Shown piece by piece: positions 31,103 to 43,982 of a stretch of DNA of 64,000 bases. The stretch covers positions 276,844 to 340,843 of the forward strand of contig NZ_DF967965.1 of the NCBI RefSeq assembly GCF_001050195.2, read 5' to 3'. Source of the stretch: Anaerolinea thermolimosa. Lineage in GTDB: Bacteria; Chloroflexota; Anaerolineae; Anaerolineales; Anaerolineaceae. The notes beneath the pieces are model-generated. The model ran no database searches. It was given only the letters and a program-made list of their open reading frames with translations, and was not told the origin of the DNA. A program made the position numbers and the translations under genes. Numbering within the stretch: the first letter of the stretch is position 1; the number at the start of each line of letters is the position of its first letter.

Positions 31103-31916
31103 GCGTCTCCACAGGCTGGTTTTCCAGCTGTTGCAGGAAAGGCAGGATTCTTTCAAAGGTTTCCCGGGGCATCTCGGCGTGCGGATAGTGACCTGCGCCG
31201 TTCACCATTTGATAACTTCCGCGAACCTGTTCGGCCACCCAGCGGGCCTGCCCTTCGGGGTCTTTGAAATCCGGGTCTAAACTTCCCATCAAGATGAAAG
31301 CCGGAACACGGGTCTTATTAAGCCGTTCACCAGATGCAGTTTTATCGGCGGCCATCATTTTCTGCAGGGCTTCCATGCGCCCCGGCTGGCGTAGATTATC
31401 TCTTAAGGTGGCAATGTATTCTGGAAGATCGTGGGGTGGGCGTGTGGGGTAGAGCCTGGCGTAGTATTTGGTCCAGAGAGAGGGCCCCCATGGGCGGGCG
31501 AAAGCGAGCGAGAACAGGAATTTCAGCCACGGATCTCCCTTGCCATGAACAAACGGGCCAATGAGAACCATGCCTGAGATCTGATCGGGGGCTTCCACAG
31601 AGGCCCAGATGGAAGCTCCAGCGGCCATGGAAGTGCCAATCAGCGTTGCAGGCCCTGCTTTCAGCGATTCGATTAATGCGAGGATGTCCTGACCGATGGC
31701 GGCGACAGAATAGTCTGGCCAGCTGGTGCTGGTTTCCCCATGTCCGCGAACATCCATACTCACCGCCCGAAAACCGGCGGATGTGAGCAAAGGGAGCAAA
31801 AACCGATATTCACTGCGCAGATCTCCCATGGAAGGTACGCACACGACCAGCGGGCCTTCGCCCTGGTCGTCATAAGCAATGTTCCCGCCGGAAGTGTGAA
31901 TGAACCGGGTAGGCAT
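31092..31916 (-). CDS. alpha/beta hydrolase
   Basis: The 274-aa protein has the alpha/beta-hydrolase landmarks: GPLVVCVPSMGDL (oxyanion strand), DVRGHGETS, the nucleophile elbow GTSMAAG, an acid in MGSLDPDF, and the His in GAGHYPHAE. The class could be esterase, lactonase or haloperoxidase-like, and the substrate is unknown. ATG 31916 has GAGGAG upstream. A longer in-frame form would begin inside the -35 box and is rejected. It is first in an operon with a TetR regulator. Confidence 0.87.
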   Translation of the reverse strand: MPTRFIHTSGGNIAYDDQGEGPLVVCVPSMGDLRSEYRFLLPLLTSAGFRAVSMDVRGHGETSTSWPDYSVAAIGQDILALIESLKAGPATLIGTSMAAGASIWASVEAPDQISGMVLIGPFVHGKGDPWLKFLFSLAFARPWGPSLWTKYYARLYPTRPPHDLPEYIATLRDNLRQPGRMEALQKMMAADKTASGERLNKTRVPAFILMGSLDPDFKDPEGQARWVAEQVRGSYQMVNGAGHYPHAEMPRETFERILPFLQQLENQPVETHAS

Positions 31917-31935
31917 GAAAGTGATCTCCTCGTAA

Positions 31936-31979
31936 GCTAAATATGTTAGTAATATAACTAATAAGATTAGCTTTGTCAA
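31936..31979 (-). promoter_or_regulatory. promoter with TetR-type operator
   Basis: Minus strand: TTGACA (31974-31979), 17-bp spacer, TATATT (31951-31956). A 16-bp imperfect palindrome TTAGTAATATAACTAA (31946-31961, 14 of 16 symmetric) covers the -10 box, with outer arms GCTAA (31936-31940) and TTAGC (31967-31971). Layout fits self-repression by the TetR protein. Confidence 0.75.
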
Positions 31980-32174
31980 TATTCAATTTAGATAAAATCA
32001 CTCATGAAAGGGGACTTCGGGAGAGGTGTATGGAAGATTACCGGATAGAGCCTCAGAGAGCGAAAATTTTGATATTTTAGGTGCGGTTCAGATACTTTTC
32101 AGTCTATCCATCGACGATAAGAATGTTGATCTGATTTAGTAGAGGGATTGACGCTTTGGGTTCCGTTCCGGCCA

Positions 32175-32552
32175 GGCCTCTGGAGACACTGGAATCAAAA
32201 GTGTCCCTGGCGGAGGTCGAATATCACCCCTCGATGGGGTCTGCGGCCTCTAGTGGCACTGGAATCAAAAGTGCCCCTGGTAGAGGTCGAATATCACCCC
32301 TCGATGGGGTCTGCGGCCTCTGGTGGCACTGGAATCAAAAGTGACCCTGGCAGAGGTCGAATATCACCCCTCGATGGGGTCTGCGGCCTTCTAGTGGCAC
32401 TGGAATCAAAAGTGCCCCTGGTAGAGGTCGAATATCACCCCTCGATGGGGTCTGCGGCCTCTGGTGGCACTGGAATCAAAAGTGCCCCCGGCAGAGGTCG
32501 AATATCACCCCTCGATGGGGTCTGCGGCCTCTGGTGGCACTGGAATCAAAAG
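32175..32552 (-). repeat. 70-bp tandem repeat array directly after a tRNA-Arg gene
   Basis: The core CACTGGAATCAAAAGTG occurs six times (32187, 32257, 32327, 32398, 32468, 32538; period 70, 70, 71, 70, 70). The sixth copy is continuous with the tRNA 3' end. Every copy includes a version of the last ~12 nt of the tRNA (CTGCCGGGGGCA in the nearest copy, CTACCAGGGGCA in others). Each copy can form a hairpin. Its outer stem covaries: CCTCTG with CAGAGG, CCTCTA with TAGAGG. Its inner stem is GGCACT/AGTGCC, but GACACT/AGTGTC in copy 1. A second invariant hairpin, ACCCC-TCGAT-GGGGT, fills the rest of the unit. On the minus strand the array lies downstream of the tRNA and should be in its transcript. 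No protein is encoded. Confidence 0.9.
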
Positions 32553-32626
32553 TGCCCCCGGCAGAACTCGAATCTGCAGCCTTTTGCTCCGCAAGCAAAC
32601 GCTCTATCCAATTGAGCTACGAGGGC
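32553..32626 (-). tRNA. tRNA-Arg, anticodon GCG
   Basis: The minus strand folds into a full cloverleaf. The acceptor stem is GCCCTCG/CGGGGGC with A73 and no encoded CCA. The D stem is GCTC/GAGC with G18 G19 A20. The anticodon stem TTTGC/GCAAA has loop TTGCGGA, and the T arm is GCAGA-TTCGAGT-TCTGC. The anticodon reads GCG (codons CGC/CGU), and A20 with C35 are arginyl identity elements. Most bacteria use ACG (inosine) for these codons, so GCG is unusual. A repeat array follows immediately, and its first hairpin would pair with the 3' acceptor strand. Confidence 0.92.
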
Positions 32627-32637
32627 AGGCGCTTGAA

Positions 32638-32665
32638 ATTATACCGCGTTCAAACAAAACGTCAA
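32638..32665 (-). promoter_or_regulatory. tRNA-Arg promoter
   Basis: Minus strand: TTGACG (32660-32665), 16-bp spacer, TATAAT (32638-32643). The predicted start lies a few nucleotides upstream of the tRNA 5' end at 32626. Confidence 0.85.
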
Positions 32666-32707
32666 GGGACGAAATGAGAGGGAACTTGAGCCCTCTTTAA
32701 TCGGTAT

Positions 32708-32746
32708 GGCCAAAGCCTCCACATTTTCCGGGTGGAGGCTCTGGCC
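32708..32746. terminator. hairpin between the tRNA and the cytochrome remnant
   Basis: AGCCTCCAC (32714-32722) pairs with GTGGAGGCT (32732-32740), extended by GGCC/GGCC arms at 32708-32711 and 32743-32746. There is no T-tract. It probably terminated the former cytochrome gene on the minus strand. Confidence 0.5.
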
Positions 32747-32759
32747 TATGATCTGGAAT

Positions 32760-32966
32760 TTATTGTCCCTGTGAGGGCAGGGCTGGCGACGACTTAAAGT
32801 CCAAGAACATGACGGTCAGATCCTCATCGGTAGCATTTTTATAGCAATCCCATGGCATTAATCCGGCGTTGAGCAGTTGTTTGCCGGGGGTGAAACAGGT
32901 GCGGATAATCGTGATGAAATCGGTCGTGGGCCAGGGAGCCAGGTCTACAATGAAAGGCGAAATGGA
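32760..32966 (-). pseudogene. C-terminal remnant of a cytochrome c gene
   Basis: The minus strand encodes ~68 residues ending at the TAA 32762-32760 and containing PTTDFITIIRTCFTPGKQL, LMPWDCYKNATDEDL and LDFKSSPALP. This is the C-terminal helix pattern of respiratory cytochrome c domains, with the axial-Met segment MPW followed by the T-x-E-D-L helix. There is no start codon and no CXXCH. An in-frame TAA at 32969-32967 closes the frame upstream, and the T-box promoter begins at once after it. It is best read as a truncated relic whose 5' part was replaced. Confidence 0.7.
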
Positions 32967-32978
32967 TTAAAAAAGGGC

Positions 32979-33006
32979 TTGACAACCTTCTGGAAACCCT
33001 TATAAT
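32979..33006 (+). promoter_or_regulatory. consensus promoter of the T-box/trpB unit
   Basis: TTGACA (32979-32984), 16-bp spacer, TATAAT (33001-33006): a full-consensus sigma-70/A promoter, as expected for a leader controlled by attenuation. Confidence 0.88.
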
Positions 33007-33012
33007 CACACA

Positions 33013-33340
33013 AAATACATATTTGAAAGACCATGACGAGGACGAGTACGCGCCACCAGGGCGTCACAGAGAGCAGGGGTTGGGTGAAAACCTGCACGCA
33101 CAGTAGCGCCGAATGGACCTCTGAGTTGCAGGGTGAACGGTTTTCCAAGTAGCCCGCGCCGGAAATGCCACCGTTATCAGGGCAAAGGGTATCGCAGAAA
33201 TGGCTGTACCCGTAAACGAGTGAGGCTGGCTTTTTCCCTGTTGTGCATCACAACAGGTTTTTTGGTTAACCGCAGCCTAAGTTGGGTGGCACCACGGACA
33301 TTAAACGTTCGTCCCAAAGGGAACGAACGTTTTTGTTTTT
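33013..33340 (+). promoter_or_regulatory. T-box riboswitch, tryptophan specifier
   Basis: The leader contains a long Stem I with the GAGGACGAGTACG start. The specifier codon TGG (33114-33116) sits in GAATGGACC. The conserved GCAGGGTGAAC follows, and the T-box AAGTTGGGTGGCACCACGG is at 33279-33297. The terminator stem is AAACGTTCGTCCC (33303-33315) with 33319-33333, then a T-run. Uncharged tRNA-Trp should bind, stabilise the antiterminator and allow trpB expression. A second hairpin (33237-33257) with TTTTTT after it lies before the T-box. Confidence 0.95.
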
Positions 33341-33363
33341 TAATAAACCAAAGGAGGAATCCC

Positions 33364-34737
33364 ATGTCTGAGCAAACGCGTTTTATATTAACCGAGAACG
33401 ATATTCCGCGCTTCTGGTACAACATCGCTGCTGATAGCCCCGTACCGCCTACGCCGGTTTTACATCCGGGTACCAAGGAACCGGTGACCCCCGATTTTCT
33501 TTCGGCGATCTTCCCGATGGAGATCATCTTACAGGAGATCAGCACCGAGCGTTACATCGAAATTCCTGAACCCGTCTACGAGGCGTATAAACTTTACCGC
33601 CCAACGCCCCTCATCCGCGCCCTGCGCCTTGAGAAAGCGCTGGGCACACCGGCTCACATCTACTATAAATACGAAGGAGTATCCCCTTCCGGCAGCCATA
33701 AATCGAACACCGCTCTTGCCCAGGCTTTCTACAATAAGGTGGCCGGCACCAAAGCCATGACCACTGAGACCGGCGCCGGGCAATGGGGGTCGGCGCTTTC
33801 TATGGCCTGTAAATTCTTTGGCATCGATCTGGAAGTTTACATGGTCAAGGTGTCTTACAATCAGAAGCCCTATCGGCGCTACCTGATGGAAACCTTCGGT
33901 GCTCATGTGTATGCCAGCCCAACCCACCGTACTCAGGCCGGACGGAATATCCTGGCGCAGGACCCCGAAAGCCCCGGTTCACTCGGCATCGCCATCTCAG
34001 AAGCCGTGGAGGTGGCTGCCACTTCCAATGGTGCCAAGAAATATTCCCTTGGCTCCGTGCTCAACCATGTTTTACTCCATCAGACGGTGATCGGTGAAGA
34101 AGCCATCAAACAGATGGACCTGGCCGGGGAATACCCGGACATGGTCATTGGTTGTGTGGGGGGCGGTTCAAACTTTGCCGGTATTGCCTTCCCCTTCCTG
34201 CGAGAAAACCTGAAGCATGGGCATCGCACGCGCCTGATCGCGGTGGAACCCAAGGCAGCTCCATCGCTGACGCGGGGGGTTTACGCCTTTGACTATGGCG
34301 ACACCGCCCAGATGGCCCCTATTGTAAAGATGTACACCCTGGGGCATGATTTCATCCCGCCTTCGATTCACGCCGGAGGACTGCGCTATCATGGCATGGC
34401 TCCAGCTTTGTGTGCCCTCTATGATGCCGGGTATATCGAAGCGGTCGCCGTCGGGCAGCTTGGGACGTTTGAGGCGGCGATTCAATTTGCTCAATCGGAG
34501 GGCATTTTACCTGCCCCTGAATCGGCGCATGCCATTCGCACGGCGATCGATGAGGCGTTGAAGTGTAAAGAAACCGGGGAGAAGAAAGTTATTCTGTTCA
34601 ACCTTTCCGGCCACGGGCACTTCGATTTGAGCGCCTATCATAAGTATCTGGCGGGCGAGCTGGAGGATTACGACTTCCCCGAGGAAGCCATTGCATCCAT
34701 CAAGGAACGGCTGCCTGAAGTCAAGGCTTTTGCGTAG
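33364..34737 (+). CDS. trpB: tryptophan synthase beta subunit, TrpB2-like
   Basis: The 457-aa PLP enzyme is of the long TrpB2 type. The PLP Lys 113 lies in [14 protein letters not shown], the glycine-rich phosphate site is [12 protein letters not shown], and [12 protein letters not shown] is the conserved catalytic Glu region. It condenses indole with serine to make tryptophan. No trpA is adjacent, and TrpB2 proteins often act alone as indole-salvage enzymes or replace TrpB1. ATG 33364 has AAAGGAGG at good spacing directly after the T-box terminator, and upstream in-frame codons lie inside the leader. Confidence 0.93.
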
Positions 34738-42496: not shown

Positions 42497-43513
42497 TTAA
42501 TAAATATCGTTCACAGTATTGTAGACATTGAACTTTCCGGTGGGGGTGACCAGATTAAGAATGCGAGTTTTTTCCTGAAGGGTAGCATCATCATAAACCA
42601 CGATTTCACCTGTTTCGCCGGGTTTGCTGGCATCTCCCCACACACTGACCCACACCTCGGTACCCTGACGATTGTATTCCATGTGTACAGCGCGGCCGTA
42701 GGTGGCAATTTCCCAGCATTGATATACTTTAGAGGGGTCTTTTTTGGCAATCACACAGACGGTGCGGGAAAGGGCCGGGTCAGAATTGAGGGCCATGTCC
42801 ACCCAGATCCAGGGGCTGTTGGGGTGGGTCTTGATGAACAGGCTGCCCGAGCCAGGGAGAGGTGTTACCCGCACGGCTTTCCAGGCCGAATCGGGATGGC
42901 CTTCGGGGTCGGTGCCGATGGAAACGATGGCCCCTTCTCCGAGATGCGAGGTGCTCCACACCGGGCCAAATTCAGGGTCAACCCAGTTGGCGCCGCGCCC
43001 GGGATGGGGTACGGCAGGAGTATCGACCAGGGCGGCCAGTTTGCCTTCCAGCGCGTCTACCACGGCGATTTTATTGGACTGGTTAGCCGCCACCAGGAAG
43101 TAACGTTTCGAGGCATCCCAGCCGCCATCATGGAGGAAGCGTGCGGCTTCGATCATTTTGATGGTGGGGTTGTTGGGGTCGGCATAATTCACCAGCCAGA
43201 TCAGGCCGGTCTCTTTGACATTGATAATCCATTCAGGCTTGTATGTAGAGGCAACAATGCTGGCGACGCGTGGTTCGGGGTGATATTCCTCGGTATCAAA
43301 GGTGTAACTGCGGGTGCTGACCACCTTGAAGGGTTCCAGGGTTTGTCCATCGAGGATGACGAAGTGCGGGGGCCAGTAACAACCGACAACGGCATATTTA
43401 TCGGTAAAATCACCTTCCTGGCCATTGTATTTACTCACTTCTACCGAGCGGGCATCGTAACACACCTGAACCTCGGCCACTTTTTGTGGAATCTCAGTCC
43501 ACAGGTCGATCAT
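42497..43513 (-). pseudogene. nirS: nirS, downstream (C-terminal) reading frame
   Basis: The 338-residue frame starts at an internal Met codon (MIDLWTEIPQKVAEVQ) and covers most of the d1-heme propeller of cytochrome cd1 nitrite reductase. It includes HPEPRVASI, NVKETG, ARFLHDGGWDASKRYF, PHPGRGANWVDPEFGPVWSTSHLG in pieces, SLFIKTHPNSP and the terminal TPTGKFNVYNT. It is separated from the upstream frame only by an exact 428-bp tandem duplication. Removing one copy rejoins both frames into a 685-aa NirS. As sequenced, this part has no proper start or ribosome site and would not make a working enzyme alone. Confidence 0.85.
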
Positions 43514-43982
43514 GGCCAGTTTACCGTCTCGCCCGATGACGTAAGCATATCGCCATCATGGAGGAAGCGTGCGGCTTCGATCATTTTGATGGTGGGGTTG
43601 TTGGGGTCGGCATAATTCACCAGCCAGATCAGGCCGGTCTCTTTGACATTGATAATCCATTCAGGCTTGTATGTAGAGGCAACAATGCTGGCGACGCGTG
43701 GTTCGGGGTGATATTCCTCGGTATCAAAGGTGTAACTGCGGGTGCTGACCACCTTGAAGGGTTCCAGGGTTTGTCCATCGAGGATGACGAAGTGCGGGGG
43801 CCAGTAACAACCGACAACGGCATATTTATCGGTAAAATCACCTTCCTGGCCATTGTATTTACTCACTTCTACCGAGCGGGCATCGTAACACACCTGAACC
43901 TCGGCCACTTTTTGTGGAATCTCAGTCCACAGGTCGATCATGGCCAGTTTACCGTCTCGCCCGATGACGTAAGCATATCGCC
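43123..43982. repeat. exact 428-bp tandem duplication inside nirS
   Basis: 43123-43554 and 43551-43982 are identical by eye over 432 positions. The repeat period is 428 bp, with a 4-bp CGCC microhomology at the junction. 428 is not a multiple of three, so the duplication shifts the frame. The total gene length minus 428 is 2058, exactly 686 codons. Confidence 0.95.

Follow-up and report, generated by a model that had tools for sequence, protein, structure and literature searches.

Our analysis uncovered a type of tandem array behind tRNA and other stable-RNA genes of the Anaerolineales, with units that combine a copy of the tail of the adjacent gene and a tiny hairpin. We read these arrays as gene-less repeats at the level of DNA, which form on the 3′ ends of stable-RNA genes via hairpin insertion at the T loop and tandem growth, and assign to this reading a probability of about one half. 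The case from which we started is an array next to a tRNA-Arg gene in the window (the whole 64,000-nucleotide stretch of the Anaerolinea thermolimosa genome under analysis). Its arrangement points to a process building on tRNA genes, and arrays of this type are a widespread form of a known, unexplained kind, that of the tyrT repeats of E. coli.

As the tRNA-Arg gene is on the minus strand, the array (32175–32551) lies 3′ of it. The features of the locus, in the direction of the tRNA, are:

32638–32665, minus strand: promoter-like site TTGACG-16-TATAAT, 11 nt 5′ of the tRNA (consensus scan, 11 of 12 matches; such a match alone is no evidence of function)
32552–32626, minus strand: intact tRNA-Arg, anticodon GCG, without an encoded CCA (ARAGORN; RF00005, 68.4 bits)
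32503–32572, minus strand: copy u0, comprising the functional tRNA from T loop to 3′ end, the first trailer, a copy of tRNA nt ~45–53 (32521–32529) and insert 1
32503–32520, minus strand: hairpin insert 1, CCCCATCGAGGGGTGATA, invariant in u0–u4
32433–32502, minus strand: copy u1, with hairpin insert 2 at 32433–32450
32362–32432, minus strand: copy u2, 71 nt, with hairpin insert 3 at 32362–32379
32292–32361, minus strand: copy u3, with hairpin insert 4 at 32292–32309
32222–32291, minus strand: copy u4, with hairpin insert 5 at 32222–32239
32175–32221, minus strand: copy u5, distal, ending short of the hairpin and the most diverged

The six-copy array of ~70 bp next to tRNA-Arg had been noticed in a prior sequence-only reading and was borne out: the copies, all on the minus strand, are spaced at 70, 70, 71, 70 and 70 bp, and TRF recovers 32175–32573 with a period of 70, 5.7 copies, 94% match and a score of 698. 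The only place in the window with a higher TRF score is an exact tandem duplication elsewhere (43123–43982; a 428-bp unit in 2 copies with 100% match). On the minus strand, a unit starts with TTCGA...GGGGGCAC, which is the tRNA from nt 54 to its 3′ end, and continues with a 22-nt trailer, followed by GGCCGCAGA, a copy of tRNA nt ~45–53 (in the gene, GGCTGCAGA), then CCCCATCGAGGGGTGATA and the TTCGA of the next unit. Thus, the window unit is a partial tRNA copy split in the T loop by an 18-nt hairpin. This hairpin, situated within the copied T arm and invariant in all five full units, is the conserved part of the array, rather than the hairpin of the spacer considered below; in their match to the tRNA, u1 retains 18 of 20 positions and u5 15 of 20. 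The locus thereby displays the tyrT-type architecture, namely units that are arrayed in tandem 3′ of a tRNA and include its 3′ end, the tRNA copy in them being interrupted in the T loop by a palindrome. The three scanned neighbors of the array encode a PLP enzyme, an alpha/beta hydrolase and a TetR protein, with no recombinase among them. Near the tRNA-Arg, a T-box leader (33024–33319, plus strand; RF00230, 107.8 bits) is found at the start of the frame for the PLP-dependent enzyme (33133–34737; PF00291), which by eye is tryptophan-synthase-beta-like.

The tail-repeat arrays are no peculiarity of tRNA-Arg. In the same genome the pattern GGGRTGNTATTCGA has 47 exact matches (its reversed control has 1 at ≤1 mismatch), 46 of them in units 3′ of RNA genes or tRNA remnants and 1 in coding-like DNA. 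Clear units are present at 14 of the 51 tRNA genes above the RF00005 cut-off: twelve were recovered by the exact pattern (Arg-GCG, Val-CAC, Glu-TTC, Gly-TCC, two Ser-GCT, Ser-CGA, two Ser-GGA, two Asn and Lys-CTT) and two further ones are Arg-CCT, with one mismatch, and Gln-CTG, with a variant insert point. Degenerate units accompany Pro-CGG and Glu-CTC. For the remaining tRNA genes the first 150 nt 3′ were read, the flank of Lys-TTT (L228; L and G numbers are our handles for loci and genomes) being masked beyond ~40 nt, and the flanks of two Ser-TGA genes without clear units were read separately. A hairpin pattern shorn of most of the T-loop part yields 74 matches, with overlaps counted twice, as against 3 for its control, and a single place falls outside arrays. 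Matches in this genome away from tRNAs (L165, L170, L175–L182 and L223) look by eye like chance. The Ser-GGA genes in duplicated segments carry 2 and 6 units; the Ser-tRNA segmental duplications at L168 and L172, with tRNA starts 1,588 and 583 bp apart, differ in their unit sets, pointing to fast array turnover.

The same type of unit recurs in relatives. CCATCGAGGGNTGNTATTCGA at ≤2 mismatches has matches in 25 of 147 genomes of the family, where L095, L101 and L109 among the places read are chance and the place in G137 is unread; exact GGGRTGNTATTCGANTC also has matches in 25 of the 147, none of them in the genera g11, g16 and g18, and its reversed control in one. In a sample of 400 genomes from the phylum, 19 match, namely 3 of 10 from the family itself, 14 of 24 from another family of the same order and 2 of the other 366, of which the one read is chance (L222) and the other unread. 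The exact ATCGAG form is found in 26 stretches from a collection of 84,980 species, all titled as Chloroflexota or Anaerolineae genera or families, with Bellilinea caldifistulae and Levilinea saccharolytica among the carriers. Nearly all matches are thus within one order; the variant is widespread there and found in that one order so far. In these relatives units occur behind tRNAs for Ser, Glu, Met, Gly, Lys, Asn, Val and Arg, a tmRNA and an RNase P RNA: 40 loci taken from pattern matches consist of 32 with an intact tRNA, 1 with a tmRNA (RF00023, L211), 1 with a tRNA half (L195), 3 cut by contig ends and 3 chance matches. The insert is a clean 18-nt interruption in the tmRNA gene (GACCCGGG-insert-TTCGATTCC) and likewise in the array 3′ of the RNase P RNA gene (RF00010, L091; GACAGAA-insert-TGCGGC). 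By an automatic rule, 71 of 151 tRNA loci in the fetched DNA bear units (Glu 13, Ser 13, Arg 12, Met 10, Gly 8, Lys 8, Asn 4 and Val 3), counts that are no frequencies because the loci were largely fetched by pattern. In G031, a tRNA-Val-like stretch (L104) has a hairpin inside its own T loop and by eye is apparently a broken gene fused to a unit.

Across these loci the general unit comprises the tRNA from nt ~44 to its 3′ end and a trailer; an 18–20-nt hairpin of the form (T/C)CCC(C)-loop-GGG(G)RTGNTA interrupts this partial copy at the T loop (nt 53/54). The copy preceding the insert matches its own tRNA at a mean of 9.8 of 14 positions, versus 6.5 for other isotypes (p = 7e-41), and the own tRNA beats 95% of other-isotype tRNAs in 51 of the 71 loci. 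The insert stem in first units is perfect (G-T allowed) over at least 3 pairs in 71 of 71 loci and over at least 4 pairs in 44, versus 14% of shuffles, a result favored by the unit-picking rule, which requires a G-rich 3′ arm; a cruder hairpin fit gives a stem pairing of 0.76 versus a mean of 0.72 and a maximum of 0.74 for shuffled arms. The outermost pair of the stem is C-G in 17 loci, T-A in 20, C-A in 16, T-G in 0 and G-A in 18 (Fisher p = 4e-5 on the C/T rows; 3e-4 with like loci removed). The stem is kept and the loop takes 22 sequences among the 71 loci, with ATCGA recurring in 25 of them at eight isotypes. Among 162 units, picked by a rule that itself asks for the general form of the 3′ motif, this motif is RTGNTA in 153, ACGNTG in 7 and GCGNTA in 2; the idea that RTG might serve as start codon for mini-ORFs was given up. 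At L196 and L208 a second hairpin-RTGATA-like insert adjoins the start of the nt-44 copy, so that hairpins flank the copied ~11 nt at either end. Other palindromes of ~20 nt interrupt the tRNA-derived part of units at L207, L208, L192 and L249, which suggests that several families of tiny palindromic insertions exist in these genomes.

The arrays also bear traces of their histories. By eye, G001 differs from its congener G002 by one additional, terminator-bearing unit, located between the tRNA and a trailer that the two have in common, L054 has an extra unit relative to L055, and the single arrays at L221 and L197 combine differing hairpins, trailers and terminators. The mixed units of L221 and L197 and the extra unit of L054 argue for separate insertions. 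A gapless comparison of first and last trailers at 50 loci that offered enough sequence and a complete last copy, with three more loci set aside because contigs end there, finds them clearly different in 28, alike in 16 and in between in 6, a mix that fits repeated T-loop insertion together with tandem duplication. There is also a tendency for units to decay tail-ward, the trend being negative in 12 of 24 arrays, positive in 6 and zero in 6; at p = 0.067 it is not significant, and we rejected it as proof of polar growth.

Each unit runs from the gene tail (T loop through 3′ end) into a trailer, then a copy of the ~10 nt that precede the T-loop point, and finally the hairpin. As the units are stacked head to tail after an intact gene, that functional gene retains a proper 3′ end. 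We propose that a candidate nuclease or recombinase recognizes the hairpin-RTGNTA end and acts at the T-loop sequence, between the G and TTCGA. A new unit would enter at the tRNA or be copied from it, and the array might then expand or shrink by unequal exchange or slippage, with its far end decaying. An RNA product would be unnecessary for a gene-less DNA repeat of this kind. In a bolder and more tentative form of this idea, stable-RNA genes may be subject, at their T loop, to an undescribed site-specific process by which small hairpins are inserted and the tail of the gene is duplicated. It would be at work in Anaerolineales and would have acted, using a different palindrome, in the lineage leading to E. 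coli tyrT, and its products would be a class of gene-less mobile units resident on tRNA genes. No enzyme tied to the arrays emerged from the relatives of the L042 integrase (see below), PF01797 proteins and viral matches that we checked.

A simpler history would dispense with any ongoing insertion or function: one ancient hairpin insertion per locus into a duplicated tRNA tail, then multiplied by replication slippage and gene conversion. The near-identical units of some arrays (e.g., Ser-GCT in G102 and Met in G024), the different numbers of units in the duplicated Ser-GGA segments and the 16 of 50 loci with like first and last trailers would all follow from such plain tandem duplication. However, the same hairpin types, such as those with the ATCGA loop, recur at unrelated tRNAs and genomes, different hairpins and terminators coexist within the arrays at L221 and L197, and tRNAs and tmRNA are interrupted at one and the same T-loop point; hence, we consider duplication alone unlikely, though the arrays probably owe something to it. 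A step less probable is the interpretation of the units as minimal attL/attR remnants of tRNA-targeted integrative elements, with the hairpin-RTGNTA as the crossover half contributed by the element. As integrated elements do, the units re-form the 3′ end of the tRNA and frequently supply a terminator, and at three places an integrase-like frame is found upstream of a unit-bearing tRNA half: at L042/L110 and L114 frames matching Pfam Phage_integrase end just before such 3′ halves, and at L088 a weak integrase match lies further upstream. The tRNA-Lys half at L195 is similar to those of these loci, and all four places have the look of integrated-element junctions in the anticodon region. Yet these elements share the tRNA sequence from the anticodon on, the three integrases show no more than distant similarity (E = 6.5e-24 and 1.3e-5 against the first), and proteins like the L042 integrase were found at only 3 places among the loci up to L142, most of the loci searched holding 1–3 kb. 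Moreover, the enlarged units (249 bp in L203; 318 bp to the next insert in L125; first inserts 227 and 267 nt past the tRNA in L216 and L123, respectively) by eye contain other repeats or non-coding DNA and no genes, and we accordingly rejected the idea of units as gene cassettes. Also contrary to this interpretation are the 44 viral matches to a loose motif, none of which by eye has a tRNA tail (a loose hairpin rule flagged 6); a phage origin was likewise discarded, though one IMG/VR contig end (L142) carries units.

The least probable of the alternatives, in our estimate, is a functional trailer RNA, with the array being co-transcribed with the tRNA to give rtT-like small RNAs or to tune tRNA maturation. 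The sequence-only reading had proposed such an RNA for tRNA-Arg, on the strength of spacer stems with compensatory changes that would compete with the tRNA fold. These stems are located in the trailer and acceptor part of the unit, and in the six-copy alignment 89 of 92 cells (96.7%) pair, three being broken, versus 38–52% when partners are slid by 1–3 columns. Two pairs show double changes, in 3 cells in total (G-C to A-U in u2 and u4; G-C to A-U in the distal u5). The pairing itself therefore stands, but its covariation is weak: in a sample of six related copies of one array, 3 of 500 shuffles match the score and cell count and 56 of 500 match the two double-changed pairs. RNA folding is modest too, with z of −0.57, −1.35 and −2.23 for three single units, −1.60 for the opposite strand of one unit and −0.33 for the tRNA with the first unit. 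Inspection by eye found no spacer hairpin in the arrays or units that accompany this tRNA in five genomes (G007, G044, G001, G031 and G015), spacers vary by eye between arrays, and the exact hairpin GGCACTTTTGATTCCAGTGCC has no match in the genome and viral collections, which may leave out this genome's own records. An array-specific spacer hairpin is hence only weakly supported, and the inverted repeat of the window spacer is a local feature.

In favor of a trailer RNA, E. coli tyrT, with the same architecture, yields an RNA (RttR is annotated, and an rtT transcript is cited in PMC2965389), at the window locus the promoter match is good and the array is not preceded by a strong terminator, and compensatory changes occur both in the six window copies and in the insert hairpin. 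However, in the stretch from the tRNA to the first insert, a simple script detects an intrinsic terminator at no fewer than 26 of 71 loci (a lower bound, as imperfect stems are missed), a T run only in 16 others and neither in 29. Quasi-palindrome correction can make paired changes without selection, and the units also stand behind tmRNA and RNase P RNA. With terminators preceding the first insert at so many loci, a general RNA role is unlikely; transcription through the 29 loci with neither signal is possible. At the window locus, where a T run and no scripted terminator precedes the first insert, an rtT-like by-product RNA is possible. The weakly supported spacer hairpin and these terminators leave the proposed switch in tRNA-Arg maturation without support, the unit type being common to other RNA genes.

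Viewed in this light, the tyrT repeats, which had looked like the curiosity of one operon, are part of a broader phenomenon: roughly one in four tRNA genes of a single Chloroflexota genome follow the same grammar, as do a tmRNA and an RNase P RNA gene of its relatives. With many cases at hand, the origin and possible role of such arrays are opened to comparative testing, and if an enzyme does insert hairpins at T loops, it would represent a new kind of tRNA-targeted recombination.

Several known systems invite comparison. Like integron attC cassette arrays, the units are arranged head to tail and bounded by hairpin-forming sites; unlike them, they hold no cassette genes, no integrase is found among the three scanned neighbors, and by eye no attC core sites were seen. 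Integrative elements with tyrosine recombinases use the 3′ portion of tRNA and tmRNA genes as their target and leave the gene with a restored 3′ end, as the units do; in contrast, the units are devoid of genes, a hairpin breaks up their duplicated stretch, and the three scanned neighbors of the window array include no recombinase. REPs, which carry a GTAG foot and form BIMEs associated with RAYT (Y1) transposases, resemble the inserts in having a short GC-rich hairpin and a conserved foot (on the bottom strand, TANCAY and the hairpin); the units, however, lack the GTAG foot and are in this genome nearly confined to the tails of stable-RNA genes. A RAYT/Y1 transposase as mobilizer was rejected, since array presence does not track PF01797: at E = 0.001 it is found in 14 of the 15 genomes with arrays and 18 of the 21 without (the latter including G163, with a single unread motif match), with one in the array-rich G000 and none in the array-bearing G054.

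The closest parallel is with the tyrT repeats, known since about 1978, and it proved closer than the sequence-only reading had claimed. Like the Anaerolineales arrays, the 178-bp repeats of E. coli tyrT/tyrV (RttR; RtT RNA, RF00391) lie in tandem 3′ of a tRNA; each includes the 3′ end of that tRNA and a trailer, copies the tRNA just before the T-loop point (AAGCTTCGACCAAGGTTCGA versus CTTCGAAGGTTCGA) and has a palindrome-rich T-loop insert. In the K-12 tyrT (L317) a unit consists of AATCCTTCCCCCACCACCA (the tRNA end), the trailer, AGCTTCGACCAAGGTTCGA (a copy of the tRNA CTTCGAAGGTTCGA), an insert of ~67 nt and the next AATCC; the tyrT-tyrV spacer is one such unit, and RF00391 matches four times, one of the matches falling in this spacer. 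For rtT, membership of rtT-like elements in BIMEs (PMC2965389), covariation support in its structure (PMC8250186, PMC7657543) and an antisense RNA next to it at the E. coli tRNA-Tyr (PMC11623569) have been reported. In the literature outside subscription papers, judged by listing, we found no description of such arrays beyond tyrT. RF00391 has no match up to E = 10 in 31900–33100 and none at gathering in the whole window. The ~67-nt tyrT insert is unrelated in sequence to the window insert and enters after GGTTCGA, whereas that of Anaerolineales enters before TTCGA; further, the tyrT units are 178 bp versus mostly 56–112 bp, CCA is encoded in E. coli, and the one locus read there contrasts with 14 of 51 tRNA genes here. 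The likeness of the window array to tyrT is thus supported and extended: the grammar is shared, the insert is not.
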